Source: Bdellovibrionota bacterium
GTDB lineage: Bacteria; Bdellovibrionota; Bdellovibrionia; Bdellovibrionales; Bdellovibrionaceae
Direction: 5' to 3'
DNA length: 64,000 nt
Assembly: GCA_963170155.1 (NCBI GenBank)
Contig: CAUJGP010000024.1
Location: 372,001 to 436,000 of the forward strand
In this document: in pieces, positions 13,751 through 64,000 of the stretch
How the letters are laid out: each line of letters begins with the position of its first letter
Numbering within the stretch: the first letter of the stretch is position 1
Notes under the pieces: model-generated
Seen by the model: the letters and a program-made list of their open reading frames with translations, nothing else
Database searches by the model: none
Told to the model about the DNA's origin: nothing
Translations under genes and position numbers: made by a program

Positions 13751-15085
13751 ATGCGCGACATTAGAAGACCACAGCTTGATTTGTTTGTCCAGTACCCCGA
13801 GCACAAATTAGGACAGGAATTGCACCAAATTTCATTAATTTTGGATCGTCACCCTGAGTTTGTTGAATGGGTTCATGTGGATTTAGTGCAAGACAAGAGT
13901 AATACTGGCGATAATGGCATGAGTTCTGAACAGGTATTGCGAGCGGCCATTTTAAAACAGACTCGTGGAATGAGTTATGAAGAGCTTGCTTTTGATTTAG
14001 AGGATTCAGCGTCCACGAGAGCTTTTATCGGCCTCGGCTATAACGAAAAGTATTCCTCGTCGTGTCTCCATTCTAACATTCGTGCCATCAGCGAACAGAG
14101 TTGGGAGGAAATTCAGTTGGCACTTGTGGCCGAATCAAGAGAGACCGGTTTGGAGAGCGGCAAACGAGTACGAATGGATAGCACGGTGGTCGAAAGCCAT
14201 ATTCATCATCCCACGGATGCATCGTTAGTTTACGATGTTCTCCGAGTTTTAAGTCGAGAATTTAAAGCTGTCAGAGAGGCGGCAAATAAGCCTCATTGGC
14301 GCCTTCCAGTTCCGATCAAAGACATAAAGTCATTGCTTTTTAGAATTAATAATTCCCCCAATGATGAACAACGACTCCCTCAATATAAAAAGCTTCTCAA
14401 AATTGCCTCCAAAGTGATGAAGAACCTTCTTGAGCTAATTCCAAAATTGGAAAAAGCAGAATCAGTCTCAGCTGATCAGAGAACTCGAATGCAGGAGCTT
14501 TCTGAATATCTTGAGAAAATTATTTATCAAGCCGATCAACGCGTCATTCGTGGTAAAAAAGTTCCAGTCTCTAAAAAACTTGTTTCAATTTTTGAGCCCC
14601 ATACCGACATCATTGTGAAAGATCGAAGGGAGACCACCTTTGGTCACAAAATTTTCCTCACCTCGGGAGAGAGTAACTTAATTTTGGATTGTCAGATTCC
14701 CAGAGGGAATCCTAACGACAGCGATATGTTTAGTTCTTGTTTAGAAAGAACGAGGGGTGCTTTAGGTCGTATCCCCTTGCAAACAAGCTGTGATGGCGGA
14801 TTTGCCTCAAGGGACAATGTGACTAAAGCTAAATCTCAAGGCGTCAATGACGTCTGTTTTGGAAAGCTCTGTGGAATGAAGCTTCTTGATACCGTCAAAA
14901 GTAGTTGGGTTTATGAGAAGCTCCGAAACTGGCGAGCTGGTATTGAAGGTGTTATCTCTTTTCTAAAGAGAGGATTTGGCCTCAGTCGTTGTTCGTGGAG
15001 TGGTTACGATGGATTTTGCCGTTATGTCAGAGGCGCGGTCGTGGCTTTCAACCTAATGGTGATAGCTCGGGCAGAACTAAAGTAA
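13751..15085 (+). CDS. DDE transposase (ISNCY/IS1182-like group)
   Basis: A 444-residue transposase that moves its own insertion sequence. The N-terminal part resembles the InsH N-terminal (DUF772) region: MSSEQVLRAAILKQ followed by GMSYEELAFDLEDS. The first catalytic Asp is likely in RVRMDSTVVESHIHHPTD, the second in LILDCQIPRGNPNDSDMF or TSCDGGFASRDN, and the Glu in WRAGIEGVISFLKRGFGLSR, followed by the usual WSGYDGF ending. The frame is full length and unbroken. Its exact IS family should be taken as approximate. A short AGGAAAGTAAAAAG leader precedes the ATG. Confidence 0.88.
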   Translation: MRDIRRPQLDLFVQYPEHKLGQELHQISLILDRHPEFVEWVHVDLVQDKSNTGDNGMSSEQVLRAAILKQTRGMSYEELAFDLEDSASTRAFIGLGYNEKYSSSCLHSNIRAISEQSWEEIQLALVAESRETGLESGKRVRMDSTVVESHIHHPTDASLVYDVLRVLSREFKAVREAANKPHWRLPVPIKDIKSLLFRINNSPNDEQRLPQYKKLLKIASKVMKNLLELIPKLEKAESVSADQRTRMQELSEYLEKIIYQADQRVIRGKKVPVSKKLVSIFEPHTDIIVKDRRETTFGHKIFLTSGESNLILDCQIPRGNPNDSDMFSSCLERTRGALGRIPLQTSCDGGFASRDNVTKAKSQGVNDVCFGKLCGMKLLDTVKSSWVYEKLRNWRAGIEGVISFLKRGFGLSRCSWSGYDGFCRYVRGAVVAFNLMVIARAELK

Positions 15086-25019: not shown

Positions 25020-26159
25020 ATGAATCATATAAGAAAAAAAGATCATATTTACGATGTTGTTATTGTTGGTGCAGGGTTGTCCGGGTTAATCGCTGCGGCG
25101 GCTCTTATGAAGAAGGGTGAAGATGTTTGTATTTTGGATGCTGCGGAATTTCCGGGGGGGCATTCAAGGTTGGTCTCTTCTCCGATTGGTTTAGTTGATA
25201 ATGGATTGAAGTTTTTTCCAGCTCATGCCAACACGACGGAGGCTCTTGAGGGGTTAAATCACATTCTTAATCGTCCCCTTGAGTTTGGCTCTATTGAAAG
25301 TGGACCTATTACTTTTCAAGGAGGGGTGCTTAAGCCCTTCGTTGGTTTTGGCAAAGAGGCACCTGATTTTCATCGAGAACTTTCTTACTTTCTTGAACCC
25401 CATCGTCTAGAGTTATCAAGATGTGTCGGAAAGGTTATCGCAGAGTTGATTCAAGATCTCGGCGAAAGATTTCATCACAGCTCATTGGTGACAAAATATA
25501 TAGGGGGCTCGGATGGAGTTATCCAGTCTGTGGTGGTCAATGGGCAAAAAACAATTTCGGGACGAAAATTTATTCATGCAGTGTCTCCCAAGTCTCTATC
25601 AACGCTCTTAAGTGACGAGCTTGTATCTGTTCGCGCTAAACAAAAAATAGCAAAGGCAGAGTATTGGACCATTCTGGGTCTTGATTTATTTCATCATGGC
25701 ACTGTAACAGAATCTTCTTTATTGCATTTATTGAATGGGACCACGGCTGATGAGTTAGGGCCTTGTGTTGGTTTATTTCATAGCTCCATTCCCTCTGTTA
25801 GTAATAGTGAACTCGTCGTTCAGCATTCTCAATGGATGACTTTTGTGAGTCAGGAAGATGGCGAAAGCCCAGAGTTCATAAGTGCTGCTCTAAAGAAGAT
25901 TAAGCGTCAAATAAAAAGAGCTTATCCTGAAGCTCTTGATCATTTGGTTTCAGAGAGAATTTTAGTAGTTCCCCTTGCTGAAGCGGATTTAGATTTAAAA
26001 TTTGATCGTAATGGCGCTTTCTACGGTATTCCTAATTTGTGGCTCGGTCACGGAAGTGCCTCTGAGGGTTTAAATCTCACTAGCTCCATTCAGCAATCTC
26101 TGCAGGTTGTATCGCAAATTCATAGTGGGAGTAGTGACACAGAAGTGGTGGCGCGCTAG
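25020..26159 (+). CDS. FAD-dependent oxidoreductase (amine oxidase / phytoene desaturase-like)
   Basis: 379 residues. The N-terminal Rossmann fold is clear: VVIVGAGLSGLIAAAAL followed by the acidic strand end CILDAAEFPGGHS, the pattern of flavin-containing amine oxidases, desaturases and protoporphyrinogen oxidases. The C-terminal PNLWLGHGSASEGLNLT resembles the second flavin-contact segment of these enzymes. The middle substrate domain gives no specific signature, so the reaction is unknown. No ribosome binding site is evident before the ATG. The stop codon lies inside a long inverted repeat. Confidence 0.75.
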   Translation: MNHIRKKDHIYDVVIVGAGLSGLIAAAALMKKGEDVCILDAAEFPGGHSRLVSSPIGLVDNGLKFFPAHANTTEALEGLNHILNRPLEFGSIESGPITFQGGVLKPFVGFGKEAPDFHRELSYFLEPHRLELSRCVGKVIAELIQDLGERFHHSSLVTKYIGGSDGVIQSVVVNGQKTISGRKFIHAVSPKSLSTLLSDELVSVRAKQKIAKAEYWTILGLDLFHHGTVTESSLLHLLNGTTADELGPCVGLFHSSIPSVSNSELVVQHSQWMTFVSQEDGESPEFISAALKKIKRQIKRAYPEALDHLVSERILVVPLAEADLDLKFDRNGAFYGIPNLWLGHGSASEGLNLTSSIQQSLQVVSQIHSGSSDTEVVAR

Positions 26160-26206
26160 TTAAGCAACTTAATGAAAGATCCTTAACTAACGATTCCGCC
26201 ACTTTT
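26141..26206. terminator. Long imperfect hairpin covering the end of the FAD-enzyme gene
   Basis: Bases 26141-26164 can pair with 26182-26206 over about 24 positions with few mismatches, including the perfect core TAGTTAAG/CTTAACTA. The stop codon TAG (26157-26159) is part of the left arm. No strong T-run follows, so this may be a 3' stabilising structure rather than a classic terminator. Confidence 0.5.
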
Positions 26207-27120
26207 GAAGAAAGAACTGCCCATTGGGATTTACCCAGAACAGCTCAAGAGTTGGTTTTCAAATCAGGTATTCCTTTTTAGTCATCCATTTAAGCCATTC
26301 TCCGGACATACATGAGCGACTTCAAAGTTGACCTGATTCTTCGTACTGATAGACATAATCCTCAGTACCACCATTATGGCCGCTCGAATGTGACTTCTAG
26401 CGAGCCTACCCCAGAGATCCTCATTCCATATTACCGGAACTTATCGATCTCAACCGCCCCACTTATCGGAGTGGTGGTTGGTTTTATCAATACAATGCAT
26501 TGTGTATGGTGAACAATTCATTGTATTGACTTGTGCAACCACTTTTACTGATGTCGGAGAACATCAATGACCCACAAGTGGTTCCGCGCTTTCATTCAAA
26601 CTCTCGTTCGGCATGTCATCCTTCCACTCTTAAAGAGGCTGCTGGTTGCGTGCATCCAGTCTTCTCCAGCAATTCTAGCCTTCGCTTGCGTTCAAAGCTC
26701 GGCCCTCTTCTTTGTCTCCCGCTTTTCGCTCTTAGCGTTCTTCGACTCATGAGCTTTTAAGGTTCGCTTGTGCTATAACCTGCCGACTTGCCAGAGGTTG
26801 GTACGAATTCAACCTCTTGTCGATCAGCTCCTACTAAAAACGTCACCGTTTCTAGTATTGATCCAGGCTTGGGTGGCAACTGGATAATTCCACCTCGTGG
26901 GCTTTTCACCCACTAGAGTTTCAAATAGCGTCGCTGCCATTGAACACAACTTTCATTAAAGCATAATATGTGCCATTCTCAAAAAAGCCGGAAGGCAGAT
27001 ATATTGAGCTTGAGGTGATAGATGAATGTTATTGCGAGTCGTTTTGACAAAACTCCATGACAAAGTGGCAGGTTGAGTTTTTCAAACTTCTAAACAAGAC
27101 CCACTCTTAGTGGGTTAGTG
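26207..27120. other. Non-coding block with a chain of local hairpins, candidate structured RNA
   Basis: About 900 bp that is GC-richer than its surroundings and has no credible gene; short open frames on both strands are low-complexity and mutually overlapping. It does contain a row of local inverted repeats: GTACTGA/TCAGTAC (26343-26368), GCTCG/CGAGC (26382-26405), GAGATC/GATCTC (26414-26451), CCACT/AGTGG inside AACC/GGTT (26452-26479), TCAATACAATG/CATTGTATTGA (26487-26529) with ATTGT/ACAAT inside, AACCACTT/AAGTGGTT (26537-26583) with GATGT/ACATC inside, TGCTGG/CCAGCA (26640-26671), CGAC+AGAGGTTG with CAACCTCT+GTCG (26784-26822), GTGGG/CCCAC (26897-26913) and ACCCACT/AGTGGGT (27099-27115). 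It does not match rRNA, tmRNA, RNase P, SRP or group II intron landmarks that I know. Confidence 0.4.
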
Positions 27121-27216
27121 GGTGGGTCATATAGAGATCTACTGCCTTACTCCAGAGGTTCATGTCCTGAGCCTCATTTTCATGAGGGGTGCGGGGGTTT
27201 TCATTAAGTAAATCTT

Positions 27217-27246
27217 CTGTTGCCAGAGTCTTTGCTGACGTGTTAC
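27217..27246 (+). promoter_or_regulatory. Possible promoter of the rpsB operon
   Basis: TTGCCA followed after 18 bases by TACAAA, about 125 bp before the rpsB start. The match to sigma-70 boxes is moderate, and other positions in this region remain possible. Confidence 0.25.
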
Positions 27247-27369
27247 AAAGCTCCTTCAACAATAACACACTTTTTTGCACATTCTGGTCCCTTTCCTTCA
27301 TTGAGAGAAGGGCTCAACCGATCTCGGTCCCTGCAAAAAAGGCGGTTTAACCAGAAGGAGATAGCTATA

Positions 27370-28311
27370 ATGGCTCAGGTTACAATGAAAGAAATGTTAG
27401 ACGCTGGCGTGCACTTTGGTCATCAGACACAACGCTGGAATCCAAAAATGAAGCCTTACGTTTATACAGCGCGTGGCGGAATCCATATTATTAACCTTCA
27501 GAAGTCAGTGGTTCGAGCAAATAAAGCTGCGGACTTTGTAAAGTCCATTGCCGCTGATGGCGGTAAGATGGTTTTTGTGGGAACAAAAAAACAGGCCATC
27601 GAACCTGTTCAAGAGGCTGCTCAAAAATCAGGCCAGTACTATGTGACAAAAAGATGGTTGGGTGGAACTCTGACTAATTTTGAGACGATTAAATCCAGCA
27701 TTGATCGCCTTAAAAAGATTGATCAAATGCGTGAAAAAGGAGAATTGGATTTTTTCACTAAAAAAGAACGTTCAGGGATTGAAAAAGAATACTTAAAGCT
27801 TTCCGAATACCTTAATGGAATTCGTGAGATGAAAGACACTCCAAAGGTTCTTTTTGTCGTTGATCTTGTTAAAGAACATATTGCCGTTGCTGAGGCCAAG
27901 AGATTGGGAATTCCTGTTGTAGGGATTGCGGATACTAATTGTAATCCTGAAATCATTGATTACCCAATCCCAGGCAATGATGATGCAATTCGTTCTATTA
28001 AGCTTTTTTCTAATCTTATTGCTGATGCATATTTAGAAGGTGCAAAAGAGTACGAAGCGAAGTTACGAACTCAAACAGACAAGGCTTCTGATGTAAAAGC
28101 TGAAGAAAAAGAAGCGGCTGTTGAGAAGCGAAAAGCCCGTCCAGGATCTAAAAAAGAAAAAGAAGAAAAACCAACATCATCTGGTCCTCAAGTTGTCAAA
28201 GTTCAAAAGCAAAGAAAACTAGTGGCAGCAGGGTTAGCTGAAAAAATTGAAATTGAAGCGGAGTTGGAAGGTTCAGAGGGAGTTATTGAAACGACTGAAA
28301 CCCCTGAGTAG
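27370..28311 (+). CDS. rpsB: 30S ribosomal protein S2
   Basis: Small-subunit ribosomal protein needed for assembly of the 30S head/platform with S1. The start ATG 27370 follows AGAAGGAGATAG. The opening [20 protein letters not shown] and the stretch [18 protein letters not shown] are diagnostic, as is [15 protein letters not shown]. The protein is 313 residues, longer than the usual 230-260, because of a Lys/Glu-rich tail of about 70 residues ([18 protein letters not shown] and beyond) after the conserved domain. First gene of a ten-gene collinear operon, followed by tsf as in most bacteria. Confidence 0.97.
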
Positions 28312-43621: not shown

Positions 43622-44276
43622 AGAGGGTATTTTATAAAAGTTCTCTATCTTTGGCGTGAGTGGACTTTGATTTTATCAGTAAAAGGGATTATGGATAAGT
43701 ACAACTACCATTTTATATAGTAATATTAAGTGGTTATAGGGATACTTAAGGTGTGCCCTCTCCTTGACGAATAGGACAGGCCAAAAAGAATCACTATCTT
43801 GAGTTTTTTCTTAAATAAAATAAAGCAGACTCGTTTTTGATTATTTGATTAAAGGTTGAGCTTTTATAGAACTTGATGGTCGTTCTTACTCCAAGTCTAA
43901 AACTAAATACTAACTTCGTTATACTTCTCTGATTGGGCGAGGTGAAATCATCTTTTTTATTTTTTCAAATGAAGTTAACGGACCTTTTTCAATAAGAAGA
44001 GAGTATGTCTGAGATTTTTTTGACTCAATACTTTATTAGTCGTGGCTCCAGTTATTATGCTTGTTTGATCAAGAAAATTCATACAATTTACAACTCACAA
44101 CTAAGATAAATAAAAATTATTTTTATAAGCTATTAACTTCAGAGAGAACCTTTTTGGTGTATAAATTTTTGACAATACGATACTAAATAGAGCTGTCTTA
44201 TTGATATGCACAGTCAGGTTTCATTGATAGGTTTCTTGGCATTTAATTTGCTTATTACAATCTCTGAGGTGCTCCT
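43622..44276. other. AT-rich intergenic region
   Basis: Between the suf operator and the next plus-strand gene. Very AT-rich. A TTGACA at 44171 has no good partner box at the expected distance. No gene, RNA or strong repeat is visible. Confidence 0.35.
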
Positions 44277-45311
44277 ATGAGATTGACCAATATTAAATTA
44301 TTATTGTTTATTTTAATGAGTATTAAAATACCGTTAGTTTCTGCACAACAAATTTCTCGGGAGTCATCGGCAATAAGTTCAATGCATTATACGACTAAAG
44401 GTTCGGAAAGCACCTATGAAAAAAATAGAGTGTCAGATGCAAATGCAAAACAATTCGAGATTAATTATAAAGTTACAGGAAACACGGGAAACAATAGTAA
44501 GGACGAGTTTCAATTATCCATGACAGTCAATCGCTCTGAAAAGCAAGATTTAGCGAATGCTTTTAGCGATTATCAGAAAGCCCTCAATGATCTGAGAGCC
44601 AATGCAGCTCAAGAGAGCACGAAAGTAAGGCCATGGGCAGCGCTGGGTCAAACTATGCGACAATTTCCTTTGGAGTTTGTGGGTTTCCAAGCCGGTCTTG
44701 GTTTTATGGCTTTGGTTGAGATGACGTTCCGTTATCATAATAATCCTTTGGCTTTTCAACAGGCTTTGGAAACCTTAACGCTTGAAAATTCCATGGGGGC
44801 ATTTTCATTTTTTGCTTTTATGTATGCAAGTCGGCTTTCGATGCCTGTGTGGATTAAACTTATTCAGAGTCCTCAAATTAGAGCTTATTTTCCAATGTTC
44901 ATGGGTATGCTAGCGTCTAATTTTTCGCATATGTATTTAGAGCCGCTGCTTCCATGTGCTAAAGACGTTATTAATCGATTAGATCCTGCACACTCTGTCA
45001 ATAGAGTGGAATTAGATCGGGGGACTCCCAAATCTTGTTCTCAGGCCTACGACGAGTTGGTGATGAATGGAAATTTCGCTCAAATGGCACCGATGCTTAT
45101 TTCGGGGCTTCTTTCAATGCCCGTGTCTTCTGCGATTCAGTCAACTTTTAGAAGCTTGGCAGAAATAGCGAAGAAAGAGCCCATTACAGAAATGGTTAAA
45201 GATAATAATGGAAATTCTAAAAAAGTTTTCAATAAAGCAGGTCAAAGCTTTTTTTCTAAGGAGTTCAGGGCGTCCTGGAATAAAATAACCAATTTTATTC
45301 CAGGTTTTTGA
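44277..45311 (+). CDS. Exported/membrane protein, probable 5' part of a gene split by TGA
   Basis: 344 residues: signal peptide (LLLFILMSIKIPLVSA before QQIS), a hydrophilic stretch, then three or four membrane-type helices (LEFVGFQAGLGFMALVEM region, GAFSFFAFMYASRLSMPVW, FPMFMGMLASNFSHMYLE, MLISGLLSMPVSSAI). It ends at TGA 45309-45311 after NKITNFIPGF. The same frame continues without interruption into the next open frame, starting NQKIIKAVADKLAHTAVG. Function unknown. Confidence 0.65.
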   Translation: MRLTNIKLLLFILMSIKIPLVSAQQISRESSAISSMHYTTKGSESTYEKNRVSDANAKQFEINYKVTGNTGNNSKDEFQLSMTVNRSEKQDLANAFSDYQKALNDLRANAAQESTKVRPWAALGQTMRQFPLEFVGFQAGLGFMALVEMTFRYHNNPLAFQQALETLTLENSMGAFSFFAFMYASRLSMPVWIKLIQSPQIRAYFPMFMGMLASNFSHMYLEPLLPCAKDVINRLDPAHSVNRVELDRGTPKSCSQAYDELVMNGNFAQMAPMLISGLLSMPVSSAIQSTFRSLAEIAKKEPITEMVKDNNGNSKKVFNKAGQSFFSKEFRASWNKITNFIPGF

Positions 45312-63388: not shown

Positions 63389-63913
63389 TTATCTTAATTT
63401 ACACATTCCATTTTCTCCTAGAATCCATACGAACCGTCCTCGCTCACAACGGAAAGCAATTCTCATGGATGTTTGGCGATACCCTGGAGTTGTAACGTAA
63501 GAGCAAATATCGCCTTCTCTTGTATATTGACAGTCTGTGTAGGCCCTAACATTTCTAAGTTGGTTATCCACCTTACATAATAAGGTTACAGCTTCATCTC
63601 GACAGCCGCCTCGTCCACGGTCAAAATCATCACGTCCACGTCCATCTCGGTCTCTACGGTCGCGGTCATCACGTCCACGCCCATCACGATCTCTGCGGTC
63701 GCGATCATCGCGTCCTCTGCGATCGTCATGACCTCTGCGGTCGCGATTTAAGTTAAAATCTGCAGAGCTTAAAAAGGAGCTCATTAATTCTTCCTGGATA
63801 TTGCTATCCTGAGAAAGTGAATTATTTGCGGTGGTGGAAGCCGACGCTGCAATTCCCATGTTGGTGATTGCAAATACAGATAAGGCAAGGATCTTGGATT
63901 GGATACTTTTCAT
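63389..63913 (-). CDS. Secreted protein with Arg/Asp-rich tandem repeats and Cys-rich C-terminus
   Basis: 174 residues: signal peptide (ILALSVFAITNMGIAASA), a short linker, then about 50 residues made almost wholly of Arg, Asp and Gly with a 15-residue unit (RDDRDRRDRDGRG) repeated at least twice, then a C-terminal domain with six cysteines (GGCRDEA, LLCKVD, TDCQYT, DICSYV, FRCERG, GMCKLR). The repeat should be a flexible, highly charged polyampholyte; the Cys domain probably folds with three disulfides. AAGGGGGAATTT precedes the ATG. Function unknown. Confidence 0.75.
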   Translation of the reverse strand: MKSIQSKILALSVFAITNMGIAASASTTANNSLSQDSNIQEELMSSFLSSADFNLNRDRRGHDDRRGRDDRDRRDRDGRGRDDRDRRDRDGRGRDDFDRGRGGCRDEAVTLLCKVDNQLRNVRAYTDCQYTREGDICSYVTTPGYRQTSMRIAFRCERGRFVWILGENGMCKLR

Positions 63914-64000
63914 AAATTCCCCCTTTGTACATTGTTAAGTTAGTATCATAGTGACACTACAAAGAAGTAGTTAAGCAAAACCAATGCCAGAAGAAGGAAG

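Follow-up and report, generated by a model that had tools for sequence, protein, structure and literature searches.

A candidate free-standing RNA gene descended from a group II intron in Bdellovibrionota

We analyzed a 64,000-nucleotide stretch of a Bdellovibrionota genome (GenBank assembly GCA_963170155.1, contig CAUJGP010000024.1, positions 372,001 to 436,000), here called the window, in whose coordinates all positions are given. Upstream of rpsB, on the minus strand, lies an element of about 800 nucleotides (nt) whose tested features show descent from a group II intron but do not fit an intron: it has no apparent exons, no protein, and a predicted promoter at its 5' end. We think it probable that this element is an independent gene for a large noncoding RNA. 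Since it lacks exons and protein, has its own promoter, and has relatives across the phylum that often lie beside stress genes, the comparison of sequences suggests a selfish intron turned into a cellular RNA. Relative to a preliminary description of this DNA, which had marked positions 26207 to 27120 as a noncoding block of local hairpins, what is new is the minus-strand orientation and the group II identity.

Extent and parts of the putative RNA gene

The block itself is real. As the preliminary description had it, there is no credible gene from 26160 to 27219, this interval is full of inverted repeats, and its GC fraction (0.44 to 0.46) exceeds that of most flanking windows (about 0.38 to 0.42). 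The nested hairpin that it rated best exists, with arms at 26474-26503 and 26513-26542 forming the tip of domain 2, and its stem at 26784-26822 is a hairpin of domain 1. Both strands fold far better than their dinucleotide shuffles (20 per strand), the minus strand more clearly: its z is -7.5 (-275 kcal/mol for 26950-26145 versus -223.5±6.9 for the shuffles), and that of the plus strand is -5.0. Of the two strands proposed for a large structured RNA, it is the minus strand that holds one. The borders needed correction, as the feature begins with the promoter motif at 26975 and extends to about 26144: at the low end the RNA passes the earlier border by about 60 bases, into the last codons of a gene for a flavin adenine dinucleotide (FAD)-dependent oxidoreductase, and at the high end about 145 bases (26976-27120) fall outside the feature. 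The parts, all on the minus strand, are as follows.

26960..26975, minus strand: putative sigma-54-type promoter TGGCAC-N6-TGCT (-24/-12), a recurrent motif at a fixed distance
26144..26949, minus strand: RNA with group II intron-like domains 1 to 6 and no open reading frame (ORF), about 800 nt; the promoter gives its predicted start and the terminal hairpin its predicted end
26942..26947, minus strand: 5' end motif GUGUUC, at the site of intron GUGYG by distance comparison with ordinary introns
26585..26933, minus strand: domain 1, covarying helices 2 to 21, containing the RF02003 match
26768..26915, minus strand: match to Rfam RF02003 (group-II-D1D4-4), 51.1 bits, gathering score 49
26878..26885, minus strand: alpha loop AUCCAGUU, partner of 26661-26655; nine copies show three pairs with changes on both sides
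26655..26661, minus strand: alpha' loop ACUGGAU, pairing with the alpha loop by nine-copy covariation
26456..26584, minus strand: domain 2, holding the best hairpin of the preliminary description; helices 22 to 26, both sides changed in 31 of 45 pairs
26414..26451, minus strand: domain 3, helices 27 and 28
26248..26412, minus strand: domain 4, without an ORF; helices 29 to 34
26214..26246, minus strand: domain 5, almost constant in nine copies, with helix 35 fully (100%) paired
Within domain 5, minus strand: AGC triad at 26245-26243, G-U wobble, 2-nt bulge at 26224-26223, pentaloop UAAAU
26144..26203, minus strand: terminal hairpin at the domain 6 site, with an A (26149) opposite C; helices 36 and 37, 98 to 100% paired, with compensatory changes

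A leader of the ribosomal operon, another of the earlier proposals, is rejected because the RNA lies on the wrong strand, being divergent from rpsB and predicted to be transcribed away from it, and because relatives adjoin other genes. A hidden or decayed protein gene is likewise rejected, as there is no ORF resembling a reverse transcriptase (RT) and the conserved property is pairing.

Conserved fold and group II identity

Support for the fold comes from covariation among related elements. BLAST against 100 related genomes gave long matches in seven, mostly 66 to 72% identical, one of these genomes (G015) carrying two tandem copies. The core alignment consists of nine elements, mostly 60 to 79% identical, with a common start and end; each opens with TGGCAy-N6-tGC, followed by (A/G)UGUUC and then domain 1. 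RNAalifold folds the nine copies into a wheel of six domains in which 95.1% of cells pair. The compensatory changes for which an alignment with related genomes had been proposed are present, with changes on both sides in 122 of 235 pairs, compared to 50.5±4.9 in shuffled and 25 to 33 in slid controls, and the covariation score is 0.435 versus 0.246±0.008 for the control. As this structure derives from the alignment on which it was tested, we rederived it from the other eight copies and tested it on the window copy. There, 86.0% of 228 predicted pairs form (35 to 45% in slid versions), and 41 of the 52 pairs that differ on both sides in the window copy still pair. The domain 1 loop-loop contact between the two loops listed above, which we take to be the alpha-alpha' contact of group II introns (a kissing loop), is kept through double changes in G093 and G014. 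Comparison of these sequences shows that the predicted six-domain group II fold, loop-loop contact included, has been conserved by selection. The preliminary description had also considered a decayed retroelement without an ORF; it was right about the ancestry but not about decay, since compensatory changes are preserved on the window copy's own lineage.

RF02003 is the only Rfam family to reach its gathering score in the window, and the other eight close copies also exceed that cutoff (53 to 73 bits). OLE, ROOL, HEARO, RNase P, and other known RNAs were rejected on this ground, and microRNA matches, with scores far below cutoff, were dismissed. Six helical domains are present in the normal order, and circular permutation was rejected, as domain 5 lies 3' of domains 1 to 4. 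Domain 5, of which the preliminary description had seen no landmark, is found at 26246-26214. In the nine close copies it reads GAGCUGYUCUGGGKAAAWCCCAAYGRGCAGUUC, nearly without variation, is followed by a covarying hairpin, and has the expected AGC triad, G-U wobble, and two-base bulge. The triad is AGC in the window copy and AGC or CGC in most copies, the deviants being AAC (G217 and G219) and UGC (G307 and G312). A GNRA tetraloop on domain 5 was not found, the close copies having the five-base loop KAAAW; the RT-bearing intron of G075 has GAAAA at this position. The Rfam model of domains 5 and 6, RF00029, has no match in the window (E up to 5) or in the relatives (E up to 1), but it does match the RT-bearing introns L005 and L118. 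The pentaloop and the unusual domain 6 may explain both this missing match and the earlier oversight of domain 5.

Both ends of the RNA can be compared with those of introns. At the 5' end, the window copy, G093, and G066 have GUGUU and the other six close copies AUGUU, the intron consensus being GUGYG. Ordinary introns with the same type of domain 1 carry GUGCG about 25 to 35 nt before the Rfam match, which equals the distance here. At the 3' end, the terminal hairpin has an A opposite C in family f1 and in several f12 copies; this is absent in several f22 copies, and some f22 hairpins are perfect stems without any bulged A. In many relatives a T-run follows, giving the form of a terminator. 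No RT-like ORF was found in the element, domain 4 included, or in the relatives inspected, and no interrupted gene was found at the loci examined (pairing of intron- and exon-binding sites itself was not scored). The predicted promoter abuts the 5' end.

Predicted promoter, lineage, and neighboring genes

Of 41 copies, 31 have a sigma-54 motif (GG-N10-GC, -24/-12) upstream at a fixed distance: 27 of the 37 in which a script found the anchor, and four more. In those 27 it lies 37 to 62 nt upstream of a fixed point, mostly 41 to 43 or 58 to 62, with a chance expectation of 0.023 per copy, and the gene for RpoN is present in all 21 of the 21 genomes tested. Within the window, TGGCAYN6TGCW occurs three times versus 0.52 expected; the two further sites, at 44237-44252 (plus strand) and 63974-63989 (minus strand), are possible sigma-54 promoters upstream of ORFs 44277-45311 (plus) and 63389-63913 (minus), respectively. 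Transcription from the element's promoter is predicted to start within about two bases of the GUGCG site of ordinary introns. This would leave no 5' exon to splice, and judging from these sequences no exon seems to remain. Nor was an RVT_1 domain detected in 8 of 22 host genomes, of which seven (G004, G093, G126, G171, G279, G281, and G307) are 95 to 98% complete and one (G014) is 81% complete; help in trans by a related intron protein was therefore rejected as unlikely. The genome of the window does hold an ordinary RT-bearing group II intron (L021, contig C35, 2260-3525, minus strand), which matches RF01999 and RF00029.

To trace relatives, we built two covariance models, R1 and R2, on the 3' part and ran them over genomes of Bdellovibrionota (the phylum being read from contig titles). 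In 29 of 369 genomes R2 gave matches that score 45 bits or more, about 47 in all and in part inspected individually, and the RT-bearing introns that it also picks up scored at most 41. By contig title, matching loci in a scan with one domain 5 pattern come from Bdellovibrionales, Pseudobdellovibrionaceae, and Oligoflexia metagenome-assembled genomes; relatives elsewhere are possible. Loci in G136 and G328 are possible, unconfirmed members. Weak R1 matches in G102 and G076 were not accepted, the former overlapping an RF00029 match just under cutoff. RF02003 also finds ordinary introns with an RT ORF within Bdellovibrionota, and a tree of domain 1 sequence places the 25 free-standing copies together, apart from such RT-bearing introns (support 94/93). 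As two of the intron rows are long branches, the evidence that the free-standing copies are a single lineage is good but not final. Plasmid or viral origin was rejected, as there was no match in PLSDB and none in IMG/VR with one domain 5 pattern. One contig labeled Streptomyces griseus (CALQIT020000065.1, L048) also carries the element and is probably a mislabeled metagenome-assembled genome.

What lies downstream differs between copies. A same-strand gene follows within 150 nt in about 29 copies and a convergent neighbor in about 9, and genes for which no Pfam confirmation is given here were named by eye or by similarity. Hsp20 follows in G008, G015, G019, and G310 (Pfam-confirmed in the last three), proteins with CBS domains in G014, G015, G114, G180, and G182 (Pfam-confirmed CBS in G015, G114, G180, and G198), and archease with RtcB in G180 and G181 (Pfam-confirmed in G180). 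Other same-strand followers are a protease resembling FtsH (G313), carboxylases (G306, G307, and G312), and a regulator that carries a sigma-54 activation domain (G093). Genes for universal stress, BON, ribosome-hibernation-like, and baeRF proteins lie nearby as well. The tandem copies of G015 (L018, 4441-6734, minus strand) each have a sigma-54 motif, one preceding hsp20 and the other a CBS gene. Within genera the follower is shared (archease-RtcB in G180 and G181, a carboxylase in G307 and G312, the same small protein in G279 and G281), which suggests that the element travels with its neighborhood and not by transposition. In genus g83 (L044 and L101) an RNA ligase operon, archease and RtcB, follows the copy directly. 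In genus g140 (L119, L120, and L125) the gene found a few hundred bases downstream resembles, by eye, one for an extracytoplasmic function (ECF) sigma factor.

The window copy has other surroundings, its terminal hairpin overlapping the end of the convergent oxidoreductase gene (stop at 26159). On its other side, 26976-27370 (plus strand) is a long noncoding stretch preceding rpsB, possibly an S2 autoregulatory leader, within which there is a terminator-like hairpin at 27115-27099 on the minus strand. Elsewhere in the window, a 444-amino-acid ORF at 13751-15085 (plus strand) resembles by eye the DDE transposase of an insertion sequence.

Competing explanations and known systems

In the explanation that we favor, RNA polymerase with sigma-54, triggered by an activator, would initiate no more than about two bases from the first nucleotide of the intron and make a transcript of about 800 nt that is not spliced. 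This RNA would fold into the six-domain group II core with its loop-loop contact and terminate at the terminator-like hairpin that replaces domain 6. It would encode no protein, the intron's reverse transcriptase being apparently dispensable, and would pass down together with its neighborhood within genera. Judging from the type of promoter and from the neighbors, the function most likely resides in the RNA itself, which would act as a structured RNA or ribonucleoprotein under stress regulation. Several observations weigh against an independent gene. The window copy is among the most diverged (61 to 67% identity, 89% paired) and has no T-run after its terminal hairpin, so that it could be at the edge of decay. 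Ten copies lack the sigma-54 motif, nine of them of family f12 and the tenth that of G126; loss of RpoN was rejected as the cause in f12, RpoN being present in all f12 genomes tested, and inspection by eye suggests that f12 copies have a sigma-70-like promoter where the motif would be. Finally, the same-strand gene starting so close downstream in most other copies also fits the main rival, a cis-acting leader for stress genes. Sigma-54 would then transcribe the RNA together with a stress gene, folding or the terminal hairpin would set read-through, and the window copy would have lost its gene. The excess of same-strand over convergent followers, the recurrence of Hsp20, CBS, archease-RtcB, and the FtsH-like protease, and the G015 tandem, each copy of which precedes one gene, speak for such a leader. 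However, downstream genes vary widely, several copies have a convergent one (including one locus common to G307, G312, and G315), the RNA of G004 is intact though its CBS gene is broken, and an attenuator needs far less than an 800-nt group II core. We consider a leader distinctly less probable than an independent gene, yet a serious contender.

The remaining possibilities concern catalysis and decay. A speculative reading, which we rate somewhat below the leader, is that of an exonless group II ribozyme that has kept its catalytic activity and works in trans on other RNAs under stress; it is prompted by a domain 5 that is nearly fixed in the nine close copies while much else varies and by the genus in which the gene directly precedes the RNA ligase pair archease-RtcB. 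With domain 5 so constant in close copies and its triad variable in distant ones, catalysis appears possible for copies close to that of the window, but as a function of the whole family it is doubtful. An ordinary ORF-less intron, still splicing from a longer transcript with intron protein supplied in trans, would account for the full domain order, the AGC triad, and the domain-6-like hairpin with A opposite C, and the genome has one RT-bearing intron. We judge it improbable, as the promoter abuts the 5' end and no gene is interrupted at the loci examined, some f22 hairpins lack the bulged A, RT is undetected in 8 of the 22 hosts, and the genome's own RT intron belongs to a different Rfam class (RF01999). 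Least probable of all, the window copy could be what remains of a formerly mobile intron, preserved only by chance: its divergence, its missing T-run, and the 11 of 52 double changes that break pairs would suit this, but pairing survives in the other 41, domain 5 is nearly unchanged, and the promoter motif shows no damage.

The spliceosome is considered to descend from group II introns, its RNAs being seen as freed pieces of such introns. If an independent gene is the right reading, it would offer a naturally occurring example, across a phylum, of how the RNA of a selfish intron becomes one of the host, and would make that transition testable; it may also extend the short list of large bacterial noncoding RNAs. 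In open-access full texts, we found no earlier report of an exonless group II RNA with its own promoter. Only one example is known of a bacterial ribozyme form apart from the retroelement form (reviewed in PMC4424553). ORF-less group II introns are rare in bacteria, where more than 1,500 copies include just one independent case, C.te.I1 of Clostridium tetani (PMC4424553).

The closest known systems are bacterial group II introns of the RF02003 type, including the RT-bearing relatives that also exist in Bdellovibrionota. They share with our RNA the sequence and fold of domain 1, the order of domains, and the triad and bulge of domain 5, whereas the RNA described here has no exons or RT, its own promoter, a terminator-like end, a different domain 6, and a separate lineage. 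C.te.I1 resembles it in being a ribozyme core without an intron protein but splices from an interrupted surface-layer gene (PMC4424553, PMC3919590). Circularly permuted group II RNAs are likewise group II-derived noncoding RNAs of bacteria, of about 900 nt, but run D5-D6-D1-D2-D3-D4 and make RNA circles (PMC8637638), in contrast to the D1 to D6 order here. OLE, ROOL, and GOLLD are comparably large, ornate, stand-alone RNAs, with OLE linked to stress (PMC12286853); the RNA of the window differs from them in that its fold is that of a group II intron.
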